The notes under the pieces: model-generated
Databases searched by the model: none
Seen by the model: the letters and a program-made list of their open reading frames with translations, nothing else
Told to the model about the DNA's origin: nothing
Translations under genes and position numbers: made by a program
In this document: in pieces, positions 3,577 to 12,098 of the stretch
Layout: every line of letters begins with the position of its first letter
Position numbering within the stretch: the first letter of the stretch is position 1
Source of the DNA: Hydrogenophilales bacterium
GTDB taxonomy: Bacteria > Pseudomonadota > Gammaproteobacteria > Burkholderiales > Thiobacillaceae
Reading direction: 5' to 3'
NCBI GenBank assembly: GCA_016195805.1
Contig: JACPYT010000002.1
Span: 186,001 to 250,000, forward strand
Length of the DNA: 64,000 nucleotides

Positions 3577-4187
3577 ATCGTGCCCAGCATGGAACGCAGC
3601 ACCTCGGTGCCCGAGCTTGAGTAGAACCAGGCGAGGGCGCAGCAATTGAGAATGACCGTGACCCGGAACGCGAATTGAAATGATGGCTTCCGGGACTTGT
3701 GGCGAAGCAGTCTTTGCGCAGCCAGCGCGCCCGGCCAGCCGCCTGCCAGGGCTAAAAGATGCAGGGTGCTTTCCTGGGTCCGCCACTGGTCGTTTCTTGC
3801 AGCCGACTTGTCGAGCGCGTACGCGATGAATGCGACAAGGCTGGCAACGAGATAGAGCGCCGCGACGGCAATCGGCAATCTCCCGGCATAGACCGATCCT
3901 GCGACCAGGACCAGAAACGCCGCAGTCAGAATGAGCGGCGCATTGCCCTGGCCGGATGGGCTGGCCGGCGTGGCCCGCCTGCCGACGAAGGCAACGCGTT
4001 CGGCTTGTGGCCGACCCCTGGCATCGTGCCTGAGTTCGTAGGTCACGATTTCATTGCCGGCAGGCCGTTGCTGCCGGCTCGGGAATGACTTGATGTGAAC
4101 GAAGACGCGTGGGCCACCGCCGTTGGGCGTGATGAAGCCGAAGCCCTTGTCGTCGTTCCAGTCCGTGATCTTTCCCTGATAGCGCAC
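3573..4187 (-). CDS. cold-shock domain plus DUF1294 membrane protein
   Basis: The 204-residue protein starts with a cold-shock (OB-fold) domain: MRYQGKITDWNDDKGFGFIT contains the RNP1-like KGFGFI, and VFVHIKSF is the RNP2-like strand. After a Pro/Ser linker there are three to four membrane segments (from about residue 83) of the DUF1294 family, with the typical LLALAGGWPGALAAQRLLRHKSRK loop. This nucleic-acid-binding plus membrane fusion is a known architecture of unknown function. It overlaps rlmA by 4 bp. A Shine-Dalgarno sequence is not obvious. Confidence 0.85.
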   Translation of the reverse strand: MRYQGKITDWNDDKGFGFITPNGGGPRVFVHIKSFPSRQQRPAGNEIVTYELRHDARGRPQAERVAFVGRRATPASPSGQGNAPLILTAAFLVLVAGSVYAGRLPIAVAALYLVASLVAFIAYALDKSAARNDQWRTQESTLHLLALAGGWPGALAAQRLLRHKSRKPSFQFAFRVTVILNCCALAWFYSSSGTEVLRSMLGTI

Positions 4188-4222
4188 GACTATTTACCTG
4201 GCGTTCCGGATAAATTCCGGAT

Positions 4223-4603
4223 TCACGTCGGCGTTTGCAGGGCAGCCTGCATCGCCTGCTCCGACACCGGGTAGCTCAACACGGCATGGACGGGAAACAA
4301 TTCCAGCAGCTTGCCGATATGGTCTTCCTCGCGCGGATGCATGAACACGATCACCTTCGCCTGCGGCGCAAAGCGCTGCAGGGTGCGGATCGTGACGTCG
4401 AGGTTGGAGACGTTGGCGCCGGCGTAATTGTTGCCCCAGCCGTAGACGAACTCCCCGACGAAGAAATCAGGCGGCTGCTTCTGCAGCGCCCGGTGGAGAT
4501 TGCGGGCCGTGTCGAAGCGCTCCGAGGCAATGCCCAGCTTTCGGTACAGGACACTGAAATCGGGGGGGAAGGGGGACTCGATCAGGGAATAAAGGATTTG
4601 CAT
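4223..4603 (-). CDS. hypothetical protein, 126 aa
   Basis: The coding pattern begins at MQILYSLIESPFPPDFSVLY (ATG at 4601-4603). The 43 residues upstream in the same frame (back to 4732) are low-complexity and come from a repeat scar, so I exclude them. The protein contains FFVGEFVYGWGNNYAGANVSNLD and a Rossmann-like strand-loop AKVIVFMHPREEDHIGKLLELF, which looks like a small alpha/beta (response-regulator-like or flavodoxin-like) fold, but no phospho-acceptor set is clear. Function unknown. Confidence 0.65.
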   Translation of the reverse strand: MQILYSLIESPFPPDFSVLYRKLGIASERFDTARNLHRALQKQPPDFFVGEFVYGWGNNYAGANVSNLDVTIRTLQRFAPQAKVIVFMHPREEDHIGKLLELFPVHAVLSYPVSEQAMQAALQTPT

Positions 4604-4663
4604 GGGGCTGCAGTTTATACGGGCTTGTTGATTATCGTCTTGGTCGCCCCAGGTGCGAGTCGC

Positions 4664-4752
4664 GAAAACCGTGATCTGTCCCCTATTGCTACTTTCTGTC
4701 CTGACAGGCTGCCGTCGGGAAGGGGGGCTCATTTTATTTCGATGCTGACCCC
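4664..4752. repeat. degenerate repeat scar, possibly from a REP-associated transposase element
   Basis: On the minus strand this short intergenic stretch carries GGGGTCAGCATCGAAAT followed, about 70 bp later, by GGGGACAGATCACGGTTTTC. Paired GGGGTCAG/GGGGACAG motifs of this sort are commonly seen at the borders of REP-associated Y1 transposase units in proteobacteria. No transposase gene remains, so if the reading is right this is a solo scar. This is pattern recognition from memory, not a database match. Confidence 0.35.
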
Positions 4753-4774
4753 TTTAGCGCACTCTTAAGCATAA

Positions 4775-5554
4775 TCAACGTTCCGTCTCAGTGCGTCGCC
4801 GAGCCATCCTTCGTCGCCGCGCCATCAGCGCGAACACGCCCAAGCCCAGGTATTCGCGGGTGTAAGTCGCGTAGCGTTCGGGTTCCGAGGTCAGTTGCGC
4901 TCGAACCTCTTCGGCGAGCTCGTCCTCGGGATTGGCTTCGAGCCATCGGCGCATCGTGAGCCACTTGGCCGCCTCGTATCTGTCCCAGCTGTCCTGGTCA
5001 GCCAGAACCATTTCAACGACGTCGTAGCCAAGGGTGCGGAAAGACGCGAGCAGTGCGGGAAGCATGACAAAGTCGGAGACCTTGGCAAGACACCCCTTGG
5101 CAACTTCTTCCGTCGGCAACTGCCGCCAGAAGGGCTCGCCCATGAGGATGATTCCTGCCGGGCCGAGGCTTTGCGCCAGCAGCGCGATCGTGCCGGCGAC
5201 GCCGCCGGCTATCCAACTGGCACCCACACAGGCTGCCACATCGACCTTCTCGTCCGAGACGTAGCCGGCGGCATCGCCATGGATGAACTTCAGTTGGCCG
5301 GCAACGCCGAGCGCTTCGGCCCGACGTTTCGCTTGCTCGGTGAACAGCTGGCTCAGGTCGATGCCGGTGCCGACGATCCCGTGATCGCGTGCCCAGGTGC
5401 ACAGCATCTCCCCCGAACCGCTGCCGAGGTCGAGCACTCGCGCCCCCGCTTCCAGACGCAGTGCCGCGCCGAGTATGGCGAGCTTTTCGGGGGTGAACGG
5501 GTTGTGGATGCGGTGAGCGCTTTCGGTGATGTTGAATATTCGTGGGATGTCCAC
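4775..5554 (-). CDS. SAM-dependent methyltransferase, 259 aa
   Basis: The protein has a class I methyltransferase core: motif I ARVLDLGSGSGEMLCTWARD near residue 38, motif II VGTGIDLSQ, and FIHGDAAGYVSDEKVDVAACVG. The C-terminal half (AKGCLAKVSDFVMLPALLAS) resembles uncharacterised methyltransferases that act on small molecules. It ends with an Arg-rich tail (MARRRRMARRRTETER). A good Shine-Dalgarno (AAGGAGGCT, read on the minus strand) precedes the ATG at 5554. It stands alone between a repeat scar and the AT-richer island. Substrate unknown. Confidence 0.75.
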   Translation of the reverse strand: MDIPRIFNITESAHRIHNPFTPEKLAILGAALRLEAGARVLDLGSGSGEMLCTWARDHGIVGTGIDLSQLFTEQAKRRAEALGVAGQLKFIHGDAAGYVSDEKVDVAACVGASWIAGGVAGTIALLAQSLGPAGIILMGEPFWRQLPTEEVAKGCLAKVSDFVMLPALLASFRTLGYDVVEMVLADQDSWDRYEAAKWLTMRRWLEANPEDELAEEVRAQLTSEPERYATYTREYLGLGVFALMARRRRMARRRTETER

Positions 5555-5684
5555 TGCGGATAGCCTCCTTAGCGTGATGGTTCACCCGGCCGAATTAGCG
5601 TTGCATTGCAGGACGTGCCCCACGGTTTTCAGGTGGGCAGATGGGTTAATGCAAGACCTGACGCCGACGCATTGCTATTTCGCG

Positions 5685-7250
5685 TTAATCCTGAGCATTT
5701 GAATATTTGAACGCGACGCCCTTCAAGAAGACTTCCAAGTCGTCCTTATGCTTAAGATATTCCGCACTGTTTTCAAATGTTGCGTAGCATGCAGCACGAG
5801 CATCATTCTTGTCAGTAGCCAGTCCTAGATTGACCATCTGTTGAAATAGAGAGTGATGATCTGAATGTTGAAGCGAGGACGCGAGGTCGGCATTGGGATT
5901 TGATGCGAGGTACGCGCGGACAAGGAATTTCTCGGGCGCATCAAACGGGTATAGGAACAGGGCCTGTTCTGTGGCGTTTCCGAAATAGTTTGAATAGTTA
6001 GGATGATCTTTGTGGTCGCCATCGAAAACCGCGCAATATCCAACAGGATTCCGATACTGTGGAAAATTCCTTTTGTGGCGCTCGTAATCATTCTTTACCT
6101 GATCGATCGGACCGGACTGAATGACGTCAACGAGCCTGTGGAAGTGCTGATCCTCTGAGGACAGCTTGGTTAGTACCTTTCCTACAAGGAAAGCCGCAAG
6201 GTCATCTTCGCAGTACAACCGAAACAAAGGATATCCGACCGCGTCCATTTTGGATCTGGCAGCCTGATGAGAAATCCCTGGTATTACGCGGTAACCGCCA
6301 GCCGATTGCTCGATGAAGCGCCGTGATGCGCCGGGAAATGAAGACAGAAGCGTGGGCGAATGGGTCGTAATAATGAATTGCTTTTTGTCCCGCCACGATA
6401 TGTATTGAATAAGGTCCGCCAGCTTTCGCTGTATCGATGGGTGAAATCCCGCTTCTACCTCGTCAATCAAGATTAGCGAGTTGGGCGGGCAATCGATGAT
6501 GTCCTTGAGTAAGTAGATTACTGCCTCTTCACCTGATGCTGCGTTATAGGAAGAATACGACTGCCCAGAATGAGAAATGAGGAAACAACTTTTGTTGATA
6601 TGACTCCCCACTTCATTCAATTCAACCTGACCAATGCCAAACACATAGGAAAATGCTTGTTCAATTTCGGTATTCAGTCTCTGCGCGGTAGCTGTGTTCG
6701 CCTTCCTGAACAGCGCGTTTGAGAAACTCCGACTCGGTAGAATCCTCTCAAGGTCAATGAACCGCACTTCACGATCACGAATCTTTGCATTGAGTCTTGA
6801 AGTGTCTGCACTCTTCTTACCAAGCCCACTCCAAGCCTGACTGCTAGCGAGTCGCTTCCCCTCGCCTTGACGATCATTAGTCCCAACGCGCCAACTCAGT
6901 TCGTAGGAGTAATCGCTACCTATGTTTTCATGATTGGTAAATGCAAGGACATCGCTCCAATTGTGTTCGCGAATTTGGCCAGCAGGTGAAGTCGAATCGG
7001 CCTTCATGAATTTTTCAAAGCTACAGGCGATCAGCAGCAGGAGACTGGTTTTCCCAACTTTATTAGTACCCGAAATAACTGTGACGGGATGAGTTAGTGA
7101 GACCTCAAGGTTCGTAATGTGCCTGAACGCATTAATCTTCAGCCGACGCAGAAAATGTAGGTAGCTATTGTCTACTCCCGAGAAAACTGAGGTGTTGCAT
7201 GCCGCCAACTTTCGTTTCTTATCTTCGATATTCTGCAATTCAAGTGTCAT
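5685..7250 (-). CDS. OLD-like AAA/ABC-type ATPase with C-terminal Toprim-like domain
   Basis: The 521-residue protein has an SMC/ABC-type ATPase domain: Walker A GTNKVGKTS at residues 61-69, a signature-like AASGEEAVIYLL at 238-249, Walker B SLILIDEVEAGFHP at 259-272, and the H-loop FIITTHSPTLL near 293-303. The C-terminal third has a Toprim-like pattern: RLYCEDDLAAFLVGK (Glu349) and VFDGDHKD (residues 409-416, DxD-type acidic pair). This order matches OLD-family ATPase-nucleases, many of which act in phage defence. No UvrD-like (GajB) or HNH partner is adjacent, so a stand-alone class 1-type OLD protein is the closest reading. Codon use is clearly AT-richer than the flanks, suggesting transfer. 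The Toprim assignment is inference. Confidence 0.75.
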   Translation of the reverse strand: MTLELQNIEDKKRKLAACNTSVFSGVDNSYLHFLRRLKINAFRHITNLEVSLTHPVTVISGTNKVGKTSLLLLIACSFEKFMKADSTSPAGQIREHNWSDVLAFTNHENIGSDYSYELSWRVGTNDRQGEGKRLASSQAWSGLGKKSADTSRLNAKIRDREVRFIDLERILPSRSFSNALFRKANTATAQRLNTEIEQAFSYVFGIGQVELNEVGSHINKSCFLISHSGQSYSSYNAASGEEAVIYLLKDIIDCPPNSLILIDEVEAGFHPSIQRKLADLIQYISWRDKKQFIITTHSPTLLSSFPGASRRFIEQSAGGYRVIPGISHQAARSKMDAVGYPLFRLYCEDDLAAFLVGKVLTKLSSEDQHFHRLVDVIQSGPIDQVKNDYERHKRNFPQYRNPVGYCAVFDGDHKDHPNYSNYFGNATEQALFLYPFDAPEKFLVRAYLASNPNADLASSLQHSDHHSLFQQMVNLGLATDKNDARAACYATFENSAEYLKHKDDLEVFLKGVAFKYSNAQD

Positions 7251-7336
7251 AGCGACTGAGATCCTGAAGTTGAAATAGAAACTTGGGTGGACATGCGCCC
7301 ACGCACCAAAAAGGCGAATAACACATTAGCTTTCAT
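7247..7336 (-). CDS. possible 29-aa leader ORF overlapping the OLD-like gene
   Basis: On the minus strand an ATG at 7334-7336 opens a 29-codon frame starting MKANVLFAFLVRGRMSTQVS. Its TGA overlaps the ATG of the downstream ATPase gene as ATGA. An AAAGAG stretch sits about 8 bp upstream of the ATG and could serve as a ribosome-binding site. The 4-bp overlap suggests translational coupling or a leader peptide. The frame is short and could be chance; no family is recognised. Confidence 0.3.
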   Translation of the reverse strand: MKANVLFAFLVRGRMSTQVSISTSGSQSL

Positions 7337-7493
7337 GACGGCTCTTTGTATTAATTGAATCCCATTTTTGATAGCCGAACTTCGCGACGAAAAATCGCAT
7401 CCATCCTTTCCCAGGCTCAACTTCTTTATGCGATTGGATTTGTGTCTAGGATTCCAGCATTCGGATTAGGGTACAACATGGTGATAGTTTAAA
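7251..7493. other. AT-rich non-coding spacer upstream of the OLD-like gene
   Basis: Between the OLD-like gene and the htpG terminator lies an AT-richer spacer with no convincing gene other than the 29-codon overlap ORF. It presumably carries the minus-strand promoter of the ATPase gene, but I see no clear -35/-10 pair. No tRNA, integrase or direct-repeat attachment site is visible at either edge of the island. Confidence 0.5.
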
Positions 7494-7530
7494 AGCAATA
7501 AAAAAGCGCAACTGATTGCTCAGTTGCGCT
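7494..7530 (-). terminator. rho-independent terminator of htpG
   Basis: Read on the minus strand, the perfect 10-bp stem GCGCAACTGA / TCAGTTGCGC (7506-7515 and 7520-7529, extended by one A-T pair) has a 4-nt loop and is followed by TTTTTTATTGC. It lies 60 bp past the htpG stop codon and has the classic hairpin plus U-tract form. Confidence 0.9.
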
Positions 7531-7548
7531 CGGTACAACGTCTGCGGT

Positions 7549-7580
7549 CATTCGTGCTTCGACAAACTCAGAACGAACGG
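7549..7580. repeat. REP-like palindromic repeat
   Basis: The stretch contains TTCGACAAACTCAGAACGAAC, with ATTCGT on the left and ACGAAC on the right, forming an imperfect hairpin. It is a variant of a TTCGACAAGCTCAGGACGAAC-type dispersed repeat that is very common between genes in many proteobacteria. Only one copy is seen in this window. It lies between the htpG stop codon and its terminator. Confidence 0.5.
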
Positions 7581-7593
7581 CCATTTTCTTTTC

Positions 7594-9495
<1,902 letters not shown>

Positions 9496-9931: not shown

Positions 9932-9966
9932 CGGCAGGCTTTGAATCCTGCCGTCAGGGTTGTTTT
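9932..9966 (+). terminator. hairpin between convergent DUF1059 and ppk1 genes
   Basis: CGGCAGG (9932-9938) pairs with CCTGCCG (9947-9953) around an 8-nt loop, followed on the plus strand by TCAGGGTTGTTTTT. It fits a weak intrinsic terminator for the plus-strand gene. On the minus strand it lies directly beyond the ppk1 stop codon but has no U-tract in that direction. Confidence 0.5.
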
Positions 9967-12026
9967 TGCCTGGACAACAGCGCCAGCAGTTCGACCTGCG
10001 CGCTGTAGGCCTTGGCGCTGCGCTTGGCGCGGCGGCGGTAGCTGCCGTCGGACAGCATGTCCCAGGCCTGCACGTTGTCGCGCAGATAGGGCTTGAGGCC
10101 TTCGTTGATGACGCGCTTCTTCAGCTTGGGATTGAGGATGGGGAAGGCGGTTTCGATGCGGCGGAAGAAGTTGCGATCCATCCAGTCGGCCGATGAAAGA
10201 AACACCCTCTCGTCGCCACCGTTTTTGAAATAGAAGATGCGCGTGTGTTCAAGGAAGCGTCCGACGACCGAACGTACCCGGATATGCTCGGACAGGCCGG
10301 GAATGCCGGGTTTGAGCGCGCACACGCCGCGGATGATGAGGTCGATCTTCACTCCGGCCTGCGAGGCGGCGTAGAGCGCGGCGATCACCTGCGGTTCCAG
10401 CAGCGCGTTCATCTTGGCGATGATGGCGGCGGGCTTGCCGGCGGCCGCCAGTTCGGCTTCGTGGTTGATGGCGGCGACGACTTCGCTGTGCAGGGTGAAC
10501 GGCGACTGCCACAGGCGCTTCAGTTTGCCGGCCTTGCCGAGGCCCGTGATCTGGGTGAACAGGCCGCCGACGTCGGCGGTGATGGTCTCGTCGGCGGTCA
10601 GCAGGCCGAAATCGGTGTACAGGCGCGCGGTGCGGGCGTGGTAGTTGCCGGTGCCGAGGTGCGCGTAGCGGCGCAGCTCGCCTTCTTCGCGGCGGATGAC
10701 CAGCGCCAGCTTGGCGTGGGTCTTGTGGCCGACCACGCCGTAGACGACATGCGCGCCGACCTCTTCCAGTTTGGCGGCCCAGTTGATGTTGGCTTCCTCG
10801 TCGAAGCGCGCCATCAGCTCGACCACCACAGTGACCTCCTTGCCCGACTGCGCGGCGCGGATCAGCGCCTGCATCAGCTTGGAATCGGTACCGGTGCGGT
10901 ACACCGTCTGCCGCATGGCGACGACGTGGGGGTCGGCAGCGGCCTGTTCGATGAAGTCGATCACCGGCTGGAAGGATTCGAACGGGTGGTGCAGCAGGAT
11001 GTCGCCCTTGCGGATCTGCGCGAAGATGTCCTCATCCTTGGCCAGCCGTGCGGGCAGGGTGGGGGCGAAGGGGGCAAACTTGAGATCGGGGCGGTCGACC
11101 CAGTCGGGCACCTGCATCAGGCGCACCAGGTTGACCGGCCCCTGCTCCTGGTAGAGGTCGTCGGCATCGAGCTCGAACTGTTCCAGCAGGAAGGCCGCCA
11201 TCGACGCCGAGCAGTTGTCGGCCACCTCCAGCCGCACCGCCGCGCCGAAATGCCGTTGCGGCAGTTCGCCCTGCAGGGCCTCGCGCAGGTTCTTGGTTTC
11301 CTCGTCGTCGACGAAGAGGTCGGAGTTGCGGGTGACGCGGAACTGGTAGCAGCCCTGCACCGTCATCCCGGTGAACAGTTCGCCGACGTGGGCATGCAGG
11401 ATCGATGACAGGAACACGAAGCCGTATTCGCAGCCGGCGATTTCTTCGGGCATGCGGATGACGCGCGGCAGCGCGCGCGGCGCCTGCACCACGGCGGCGC
11501 CGGAATTGCGACCGAAGGCATCGCGCCCGGACAGCTCGACCGCAAAGTTGAGGCTCTTGTTGAGGACGCGCGGGAAAGGGTGCGACGGATCGAGCCCCAC
11601 CGGCGTTAGCACCGGCATCAACTCGCGGAAGAAGTAGTCGCGGATCCATGCCGCCTGGATTTCGTTCCACTGCGTGCGGCGGATGAAGTGGACGCCGTGC
11701 TCGGCCAGTTCGGGAATGATTTCCTTGTTGAAGAGCTCATACTGCCGGGCCACCAGCGCATGGGCCGTTTGCGATACCGCGCGGAACTGCTGGCGCGGTG
11801 TCATGCCGTCGGGCGAGCGCTGGGTGGAGTTGGCGCGGATCTGTTCCTTGAGGCCGGCCACCCGCACCTCGAAGAATTCGTCCATATTGCTCGACACGAT
11901 GCACAGGAAGCGCAGGCGTTCCAGCAGGGGCATGGACGGGTCGTCGGCTTGGGCCAGCACGCGGCGCTGGAACGCGAGGATGCCGAGCTCGCGGTTGATG
12001 AGCGTGTCGGGACTGGGCAGATTCAT
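9954..12026 (-). CDS. ppk1: polyphosphate kinase 1
   Basis: PPK1 makes inorganic polyphosphate from ATP, usually at the membrane. The 690-residue product starts MNLPSPDTLINRELGILAFQ, matching the family N-domain. It contains LLERLRFLCIVSSNMDEFFEVRVAG, FPRVLNKSLNFAVEL, the histidine segment VGHKTHAKLALVIR, HLGTGNYHARTARLYTDFG and a second conserved histidine in RFLEHTRIFYF. The ATG at 12026 is chosen over an upstream start at 12098, which would add 24 residues outside the family and run through a PHO box. It is divergent from a CYTH-CHAD gene, and the sixA gene follows that, forming a polyphosphate-related neighbourhood. Confidence 0.96.
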   Translation of the reverse strand: MNLPSPDTLINRELGILAFQRRVLAQADDPSMPLLERLRFLCIVSSNMDEFFEVRVAGLKEQIRANSTQRSPDGMTPRQQFRAVSQTAHALVARQYELFNKEIIPELAEHGVHFIRRTQWNEIQAAWIRDYFFRELMPVLTPVGLDPSHPFPRVLNKSLNFAVELSGRDAFGRNSGAAVVQAPRALPRVIRMPEEIAGCEYGFVFLSSILHAHVGELFTGMTVQGCYQFRVTRNSDLFVDDEETKNLREALQGELPQRHFGAAVRLEVADNCSASMAAFLLEQFELDADDLYQEQGPVNLVRLMQVPDWVDRPDLKFAPFAPTLPARLAKDEDIFAQIRKGDILLHHPFESFQPVIDFIEQAAADPHVVAMRQTVYRTGTDSKLMQALIRAAQSGKEVTVVVELMARFDEEANINWAAKLEEVGAHVVYGVVGHKTHAKLALVIRREEGELRRYAHLGTGNYHARTARLYTDFGLLTADETITADVGGLFTQITGLGKAGKLKRLWQSPFTLHSEVVAAINHEAELAAAGKPAAIIAKMNALLEPQVIAALYAASQAGVKIDLIIRGVCALKPGIPGLSEHIRVRSVVGRFLEHTRIFYFKNGGDERVFLSSADWMDRNFFRRIETAFPILNPKLKKRVINEGLKPYLRDNVQAWDMLSDGSYRRRAKRSAKAYSAQVELLALLSRQKQP

Positions 12027-12080
12027 GATGGATTTATTCGTAGTGTGCTTCAATGATAAACGCCCGTGTCTGACCCAAAC

Positions 12081-12098
12081 ATGACAGTTATATGACAA
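12081..12098 (-). promoter_or_regulatory. PHO box upstream of ppk1
   Basis: Read on the minus strand the sequence is TTGTCAT-ATAA-CTGTCAT, two 7-bp direct repeats separated by 4 bp, matching the PhoB-binding consensus CTGTCAT-AWAW-CTGTCAY at all but one position. It lies 55 bp upstream of the ppk1 ATG in the correct orientation. It also covers the ATG (12092) of the divergent CYTH-CHAD gene, so PhoB binding could affect both. Confidence 0.75.

Follow-up and report, generated by a model that had tools for sequence, protein, structure and literature searches.

A Solitary Gene for a Probable ABC ATPase-Toprim Protein in a Variable Site Behind htpG as a Candidate Single-Gene Anti-Phage System

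Introduction

What is a single gene of low GC content doing between a chaperone gene and a methyltransferase gene in a GC-rich stretch of bacterial DNA, and by what route did it arrive there? This question was raised by a stretch of 64,000 nucleotides from a Hydrogenophilales bacterium (contig JACPYT010000002.1, positions 186,001 to 250,000), hereafter the window, in which the gene for a protein that we refer to as P0001 lies next to htpG. Proteins in which an ATPase and a Toprim domain are encoded by one gene pose the problem of how a single chain can both detect infection and keep its nuclease in check. Broad defence from an OLD protein acting alone was counted among the open questions in a 2023 review (PMC10568477), and the papers on IbfA and YbjD discussed below have begun to answer it. 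A clade that stands apart, lacks a partner and has altered residues at its metal site would offer a clean test case.

Results

Base composition and surroundings of the gene. A preliminary description of the window had pointed to an AT-rich island among high-GC genes, and this was borne out by our measurements. The P0001 gene has a GC content of 0.474, as against a mean of 0.643 (sd 0.031) and a minimum of 0.573 across 1179 overlapping 1566-bp windows in the rest of the 64 kb, and its GC3 is 0.504 compared to 0.897 for htpG. The low-GC stretch runs from a few bases past the P0001 stop codon to about 7500. The open reading frame that had been described is real, although the span given for it (5685-7336) ended 86 bases beyond the ATG within a frame that is open for 546 codons. 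Six aligned relatives start at the position equivalent to that ATG or two codons later; in the relative L011 the start residue at the equivalent position differs. The coordinates of the gene, its motifs and its surroundings are listed in Table 1.

As the preliminary description had also stated, no known defence partner is found among the neighbours of the gene (the methyltransferase gene and htpG). The genes of the close relatives are solitary as well. Neither a helicase nor a reverse transcriptase (RT, by a crude motif scan) adjoins P0001. Pattern scans found no promoter-like site for the gene, and the stretch from 4000 to 9000 gave no Rfam match at E up to 1. Terminator-like hairpins in the scanned stretch were no more frequent than in shuffles (2 found, 1.9 expected). 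Judged by these data, P0001 is a gene that appears to have been acquired horizontally, as a solitary gene in an AT-rich insert between htpG and the methyltransferase gene.

Table 1. Positions in the window of the P0001 gene, its motifs and the features around it.
Feature	Position	Strand	Remarks
Methyltransferase gene, left flank	4775..5554	minus	follows htpG in 5 of the 20 relatives examined
GTCAGGTCTTGCATTAAC, 18-base word at left edge of insert	5645..5662	minus	also at cargo edge in G009 and G051
Estimated insert, about 1.8 kb, GC 0.470	5667..7445	.	edges are ends of alignments to relatives, not a sequenced empty site
P0001, predicted ABC ATPase-Toprim protein, 521 aa	5685..7250	minus	ATG at 7250
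E440 of PEK motif, candidate further metal ligand	5931..5933	minus	invariant in 12 proteins; E in 14 of 16
Toprim-like D410-G-D412	6015..6023	minus	both D invariant in 12- and 16-protein sets; aligned to OLD DxD
Toprim-like acidic residue E348	6207..6209	minus	invariant in both sets; aligned to OLD Toprim glutamate
H-loop H297	6360..6362	minus	invariant in both sets
Walker B LILIDE, residues 259-264	6459..6476	minus	E264 invariant in both sets
ABC signature SGE, residues 239-241	6528..6536	minus	G240 and E241 invariant in 12; E241 in 15 of 16
Walker A GTNKVGKT, residues 61-68 (K67)	7047..7070	minus	G61, N63, G66 and K67 without exception in the 12-protein set
AT-rich stretch upstream of the gene, at right edge of insert	7251..7445	.	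alignments of several relatives behind htpG break off at about 7445-7448
Terminator-like hairpin behind htpG, 12 pairs and T run	7504..7531	minus	pattern match only
htpG (Hsp90), conserved right flank	7594..9495	minus	Pfam HSP90 2.4e-137

Domains and conserved residues of P0001. The ATPase motifs noted earlier, with Lys67 in the sequence GTNKVGKT, belong to an ABC ATPase by the Pfam matches of P0001 (AAA_15, 4.4e-19; AAA_21, 1.8e-14), both of which lie outside the C-terminal half, and the set of ABC-ATPase motifs (K67, SGE, DE and H297) is complete as judged from the alignments. The acidic pattern described for the C-terminus was also found, as E348-D349 and D410-G-D412. In 12 diverse homologs the invariant positions were the start residue, G61, N63, G66, K67, S233, G240, E241, L259, E264, H270, H297, E348, D349, A352, G380, D410, D412 and E440, which we take to be just the working parts of the protein. 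In a wider alignment of 16 proteins, G66 is a serine in one and G380 is conserved within the P0001 clade only.

The proposal that the C-terminus is a Toprim domain was sustained in part. Taken alone, the C-terminal half matched no Pfam family at E up to 5, reached an hhalign probability of 0.2% against an OLD/GajA profile, and as a profile gave chance matches only to PDB sequences (best 0.21). At the same cut-off none of the C-terminal halves of 15 members matched a Toprim family of Pfam; 13 Pfam families each matched one of these members, the best being DUF4435 at 0.012. However, the PADLOC profile ATPase-Toprim_I-B did match the isolated half of P0001 (0.0017), the sole defence profile to do so, and full-length P0001 aligned to the OLD/GajA profile with a probability of 99.3% over residues 256-415, with E348 placed on the Toprim glutamate and D410 and D412 on the DxD motif. 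Full-length P0001 also aligned to a single-sequence profile of an IbfA-like protein (98.3%, residues 33-517). The order of its PADLOC matches was HEC-04 (8.5e-32, residues 156-463), ATPase-Toprim_I-B (1.7e-23, residues 36-510), AriA and PtuA.

An AlphaFold model of P0001 from 16 sequences had a pLDDT of 80.3 and a pTM of 0.69, and it replaced an earlier model from six close sequences (pLDDT 55.2), whose Foldseek list was set aside. The strand-helix order predicted around residues 343-450 fits a Toprim fold. Foldseek of the 16-sequence model listed Thermus OLD 6p74 at the top (9.2e-13, 548 columns), followed by GajA and then PtuA-type chains, all of them with low TM-scores; against whole OLD and GajA chains these were 0.22-0.40, with an rmsd of up to 23 A. 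The rows of the VIA alignment cover P0001 residues 22-338, the ATPase half, only, so that the missing Toprim folds among them are uninformative. Because of these low TM-scores and the restricted VIA rows, the predicted Toprim fold lacks structural confirmation. Based on the full-length profile alignment, the conservation of the motifs, the predicted fold and the PADLOC ATPase-Toprim profile, we consider a diverged Toprim domain at the C-terminus likely, not proven.

Relatives and distribution. A scan of GTDB species genomes yielded, from 25 candidate stretches, at least seven loci with relatives of P0001 at 55-79% identity in the best segment, a count that is a lower bound because the scan needs exact short peptides. 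The record titles of these loci name Sedimenticola, Deltaproteobacteria, Methylobacter, Methylophilus, Proteobacteria, Allomuricauda and Bacteroidetes. An eighth relative (L090, 55% identity) lies directly behind a phage integrase on an IMG/VR provirus contig. It is the one member of the P0001 clade among the 35 of 106 stretches that were confirmed in a third viral scan, which used a broad profile; two viral scans for the clade itself confirmed none of their stretches (1 and 19, respectively).

Within the genus the gene is rare rather than present at this site, with normal GC, in most relatives: it was found in one of 56 genomes of the genus, the window's own, and four further genus genomes match distantly, over 50 to 142 residues. 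Three of 369 genomes passed 1e-15 in the class search, the own genome and two at about 30%, and a profile search of 398 genomes of the phylum returned the own genome alone at 1e-20. At another site of one genus member there is a wider-group relative (L087:3593-5044 in G051; 23% identity over 373 residues). None of 156 matching plasmid records covered 80% of P0001, there was no plasmid DNA match to the gene, and phage records gave one match, at 24%.

In our tree P0001 and six relatives (seven full-length rows, 54-79% identity) form one clade with support of 100/100 on a long branch; two relatives were left out, L011, whose frame departs from the family near a contig end, and L013, which has one internal stop. 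P2 Old and the OLD protein of the relative G004 are split from the other 23 rows by a branch with support of 100/99, the long branches being flagged. Joining the P0001 clade with the IbfA-like protein (AU p 0.281) or with HEC-04 (AU p 0.111) was not rejected in either case. The scanned neighbours of the relatives vary by locus (RtcB, HAD hydrolase, DNA methylase, PhnA-type protein, aminotransferase), and some relatives adjoin small toxin-type families (TumE, HepT-like, PIN). GC was lower in the gene than in its flanks in all eight relatives. Comparison of seven upstream and seven downstream 500-base stretches gave no shared flank DNA, only short matches with E of 0.055 or worse. Together, these data describe what is, as judged by alignment and tree, a distinct clade whose members, found in bacteria far apart from each other and in one provirus, have differing surroundings.

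The site behind htpG. The 3' end of htpG was present in 47 of the 56 genus genomes (a few matches were short), and in 20 of 46 relatives the DNA that follows it was examined, three of these stretches being short (983, 2469 and 3492 bases). Five of the 20 (G002, G007, G009, G012 and G042) keep both flanking genes, with the methyltransferase gene 1.5 to 3.6 kb after htpG. There was no strictly empty site among these five, each of which holds other cargo: a Schlafen AlbA_2 protein in G002 (4.4e-17), three unnamed ORFs in G007, AbiO/Nhi in G009 (2e-190), four ORFs with no accepted family in G012, and, in G042, a 266-aa ORF and a HEPN RiboL-PSP protein (2e-26). Also behind htpG are DarT with a NADAR antitoxin in G053 (8e-20, 3.2e-87), HEC-07 in G028 (7.2e-204) and a type IIG RM system in G011 (3.8e-283), together with weak matches to RTasHEPN in G055 (2.2e-6) and to part of PDC-M34A in G001 (2.3e-6). 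With the OLD/AriA-type protein of G004 described below, a defence- or toxin-type family was confidently recognised behind htpG in seven of the 20 relatives. The underlying PADLOC scan took in 20 ORFs from 13 of the 20 genomes, leaving out G008, G013, G014, G019, G023, G030 and G051; seven genomes gave strong matches, two weak ones and four (G007, G012, G026 and G029) no accepted family.

On the 5' side of htpG the next gene of the window (9954-12098) was found in 15 of the 20 relatives, and two of the five misses had less than 1.8 kb of sequence. The GC content of up to 2.5 kb was lower on the 3' than on the 5' side of htpG in 18 of 20, the order being reversed in G014 and G023; this comparison of the two sides is one of gene content and GC. 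The 3' side of htpG is a variable cargo site where relatives carry other genes, several of them of defence type.

Several further observations concern this site. In G004, another species of the genus, a canonical OLD/AriA-type gene of 559 aa lies behind htpG (L062:616-2295; 6.8e-37, Old 9.1e-33), and two unrelated ATPase-Toprim genes, that of G004 and that of P0001, have therefore been seen here; none of 122 viral stretches was confirmed as holding a relative of the G004 protein. Behind htpG the relative G028 has a second copy (L065:1292-1477, 81% identical) of window positions 7446-7628, which comprise the htpG 3' end and the terminator region. This copy lies shortly before the HEC-07 gene and is possibly a footprint of cargo entry. 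The same 211-aa protein, with no Pfam or PADLOC family, comes first behind htpG in G007 (L057:1179-1814) and G051 (L063:672-1307). The word GTCAGGTCTTGCATTAAC occurs in two exact copies in the own genome, the second at G000:C10:208995-209012, and once in L058 of G055; we take it to be reminiscent of REP-type repeats.

Discussion

We think it probable that P0001 is the product of a solitary anti-phage gene that combines a sensor ATPase with a Toprim nuclease, works by abortive infection, and was acquired horizontally into the cargo site between htpG and the methyltransferase gene. From its relatives, its site and its distribution we infer a defence role for P0001, with a putative nuclease activity and sensor-effector logic; its composition, motifs, clade, solitary state, sporadic distribution and variable site were observed. 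The single-gene defence system envisaged in the preliminary description is plausible. The gene is solitary in the window and in close relatives and foreign in composition.

In the mechanism that we propose, the SMC/Rad50/PtuA-like ABC ATPase would be sensor and clamp and the diverged C-terminal Toprim domain a metal-dependent nuclease. The ATPase would keep the nuclease inactive in the resting cell. A signal of infection would alter the state of the ATPase and free the Toprim site (E348, D410, D412 and probably E440), which would then cut nucleic acid such that the infected cell is stopped.

Abortive infection is suggested by what has been reported on single-gene relatives. IbfA is reported to be a single ATPase-Toprim gene that causes abortive infection, with burst size and viability lowered, phage DNA replication normal and late transcripts reduced (PMC12111858). 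P2 Old is described as cleaving tRNA once RecBC is inhibited (as told in PMC13261556 and PMC13096335). Based on the normal phage DNA replication and the low late expression and burst size with IbfA, and on the tRNA cleavage by P2 Old, our guess leans slightly towards RNA, in particular tRNA, over DNA as what P0001 would cut. Two reports call for restraint. In the IbfA study complementation was incomplete and the authors took the protein not to be an ATPase (PMC12111858), a conclusion that weighs against a simple ATPase reading. The Toprim domain of the Class 1 OLD protein YbjD was dispensable for its phenotype on induced expression (PMC13261556), which cautions against assuming that the nuclease is the effector. 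It is on account of these reports on IbfA, P2 Old and YbjD that we put the model of sensor ATPase and Toprim nuclease no higher than probable and treat RNA over DNA as a lean only.

A DNA target would leave the protein the same but make it a metal-dependent DNA nuclease restrained by its ATPase, in the way that has been put forward for GajA and Thermus OLD. These two proteins head the Foldseek whole-chain order, and residues E377, D431 and D433 of the Thermus OLD DNA nuclease (PMC7049728) correspond to E348, D410 and D412 in P0001. However, the spacing places A352 and A438 of P0001 at the metal-B positions D381 and S478 of Thermus OLD, and phage DNA replication stays normal with IbfA, the nearest tested relative in kind, such that we regard cutting of DNA as rather unlikely. 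It is improbable that P0001 is instead an orphan, an effector once part of a retron (type I-B) or of a Gabija-like system, which has lost its partner and is perhaps functionless alone. ATPase-Toprim_I-B was the second-best defence profile for P0001, as well as the only one matched by the C-terminal half, but the eight relatives have no RT motif (in a crude scan, with some flanks short), no shared flank DNA and no recurrent neighbour.

We see very little probability in the view that P0001 is a chromosomal housekeeping or DNA-repair ATPase of RecF/Rad50 type with no part in defence. Its ATPase half does resemble SMC/Rad50 heads (VIA Z up to 18.8), and an archaeal OLD-type protein has been given a cell-cycle role (PMC12796447). 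Against this, the gene is present in one of 56 genus genomes, its family, at 54-79% identity, occurs in more than one phylum and has a low local GC, and it occupies a site where relatives hold defence genes. An origin as an integron cassette seems more improbable still: the own genome has an integron integrase (G000:C17:239642-240586; 476.7 bits, cut-off 265) beside an ORF array with a GC content of 0.48-0.57, yet the P0001 gene is on a different contig, and its flanks match intercassette DNA at chance level only and fold no better than shuffles. The cassette-like ORFs near that integrase (L074, G000:C17:232000-250000) are on the strand opposite to it.

Returning to P0001 as a probable solitary defence gene, the kind of system is known, and the P0001 clade and the htpG 3' site look new. 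In our search of the open-access literature, with subscription papers and preprints mostly outside it, none of the matches listed described the clade or a defence site behind htpG. We tentatively suggest, while giving this slightly less than even credence, that the gap 3' of htpG is an integrase-less swap site that holds one small defence unit per lineage, its content being replaced when the flanking genes recombine, and that P0001 stands at the head of a cross-phylum family of its own, abortive nucleases of the one-gene ATPase-Toprim kind whose Toprim site has been remodelled (CED..A, PEK) and which database models do not name. The site is also a place to seek new defence genes, as four of the 13 scanned relatives hold low-GC genes there that no library names.

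Comparison with Known Systems

PtuA (Septu/retron I-A) resembles P0001 in the ATPase half, for which it gave the best PDB sequence matches (1.5e-10) and a VIA Z of about 18. PtuA works with an HNH partner, whereas P0001 has no partner. GajA of Gabija, a Class 2 OLD, is followed by a UvrD-like helicase gene where P0001 has the methyltransferase gene.

The Class 1 OLD proteins (P2 Old, Thermus scotoductus OLD, YbjD) share with P0001 an isolated gene, an ATPase with what in P0001 is a probable Toprim domain, and the E/D/D residues of metal site A. In Thermus OLD, E480 completes metal site B, a site (D381, S478, E480) described as conserved in all Class 1 homologs, in which the ABC signature is called degenerate (PMC7049728). 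E348, D410 and D412, each conserved in 16 of 16 proteins, match metal site A, and E440 matches E480 by spacing; alanines replace D381 and S478, P0001 reads CED..A where OLD reads VEG..E, and its signature is a canonical SGE, unlike that of Class 1 OLD. With two alanines in metal site B and an ordinary SGE, P0001 would be Class 1 by context only. P0001 as a canonical Class 1 OLD was ruled out by the 100/99 branch and the incomplete metal-B set. The OLD assignment of the preliminary description thus stands in the broad sense of an ABC ATPase with a Toprim-like C-terminus and is not supported in the narrow one, in view of that branch and the differing metal site B.

The retron type I-B effector (PDLC02914) is like P0001 in that its profile extends over most of the protein and also matches the C-terminal half alone. 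No Y-x-D-D-like motif was found by a crude scan of ORFs of at least 200 codons in the available flanks of eight relatives, some of which were short (L007, 233 bases on the right; L011, 398 on the right; L013, 6 on the left). P0001 as a retron component was rejected on the missing Rfam match at 4000-9000 and the missing RT motif in these flanks.

HEC-04 (PADLOC PDLC04149), which according to PMC12111858 defends against T4 and T5 as a single gene, is an ABC ATPase fused to a Toprim domain, the architecture predicted for P0001. Three HEC-04 proteins score 715-716 bits with its profile at full length, compared to 108 bits over residues 156-463 for P0001 and 112-118 for its clade mates, a difference that rules out P0001 as HEC-04 proper. 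The C-terminal half of P0001 alone did not match the HEC-04 profile, and HEC-04 members and P0001 relatives form separate clades in the tree, the joining of which was not rejected (AU p 0.111). In the genome G366 (L084:325-8159) a HEC-04-like gene (150 bits) has a 1162-aa ORF on one side and a methylase-like ORF of 957 aa on the other, an arrangement that resembles the Hma locus, the gene names having been assigned by eye.

IbfA of the IncI1 plasmids R64 and pUA1135 (PMC12111858) is like P0001 a single gene of about 520 aa, with the order of ATPase and then Toprim domain that is predicted for P0001. The IbfA-like protein that we compared is encoded by a 1557-bp ORF beside a ProQ gene in L017, which fits the published IbfA in length and neighbour. 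It shares about 24% identity with P0001 over 353 residues and scores 141 bits with the HEC-04 profile, as against 108 for P0001, and the full-length profile alignment pairs E348, D410/D412 and PE of P0001 with their counterparts in it. IbfA, as reported, is plasmid-borne within an operon, unlike the solitary P0001.
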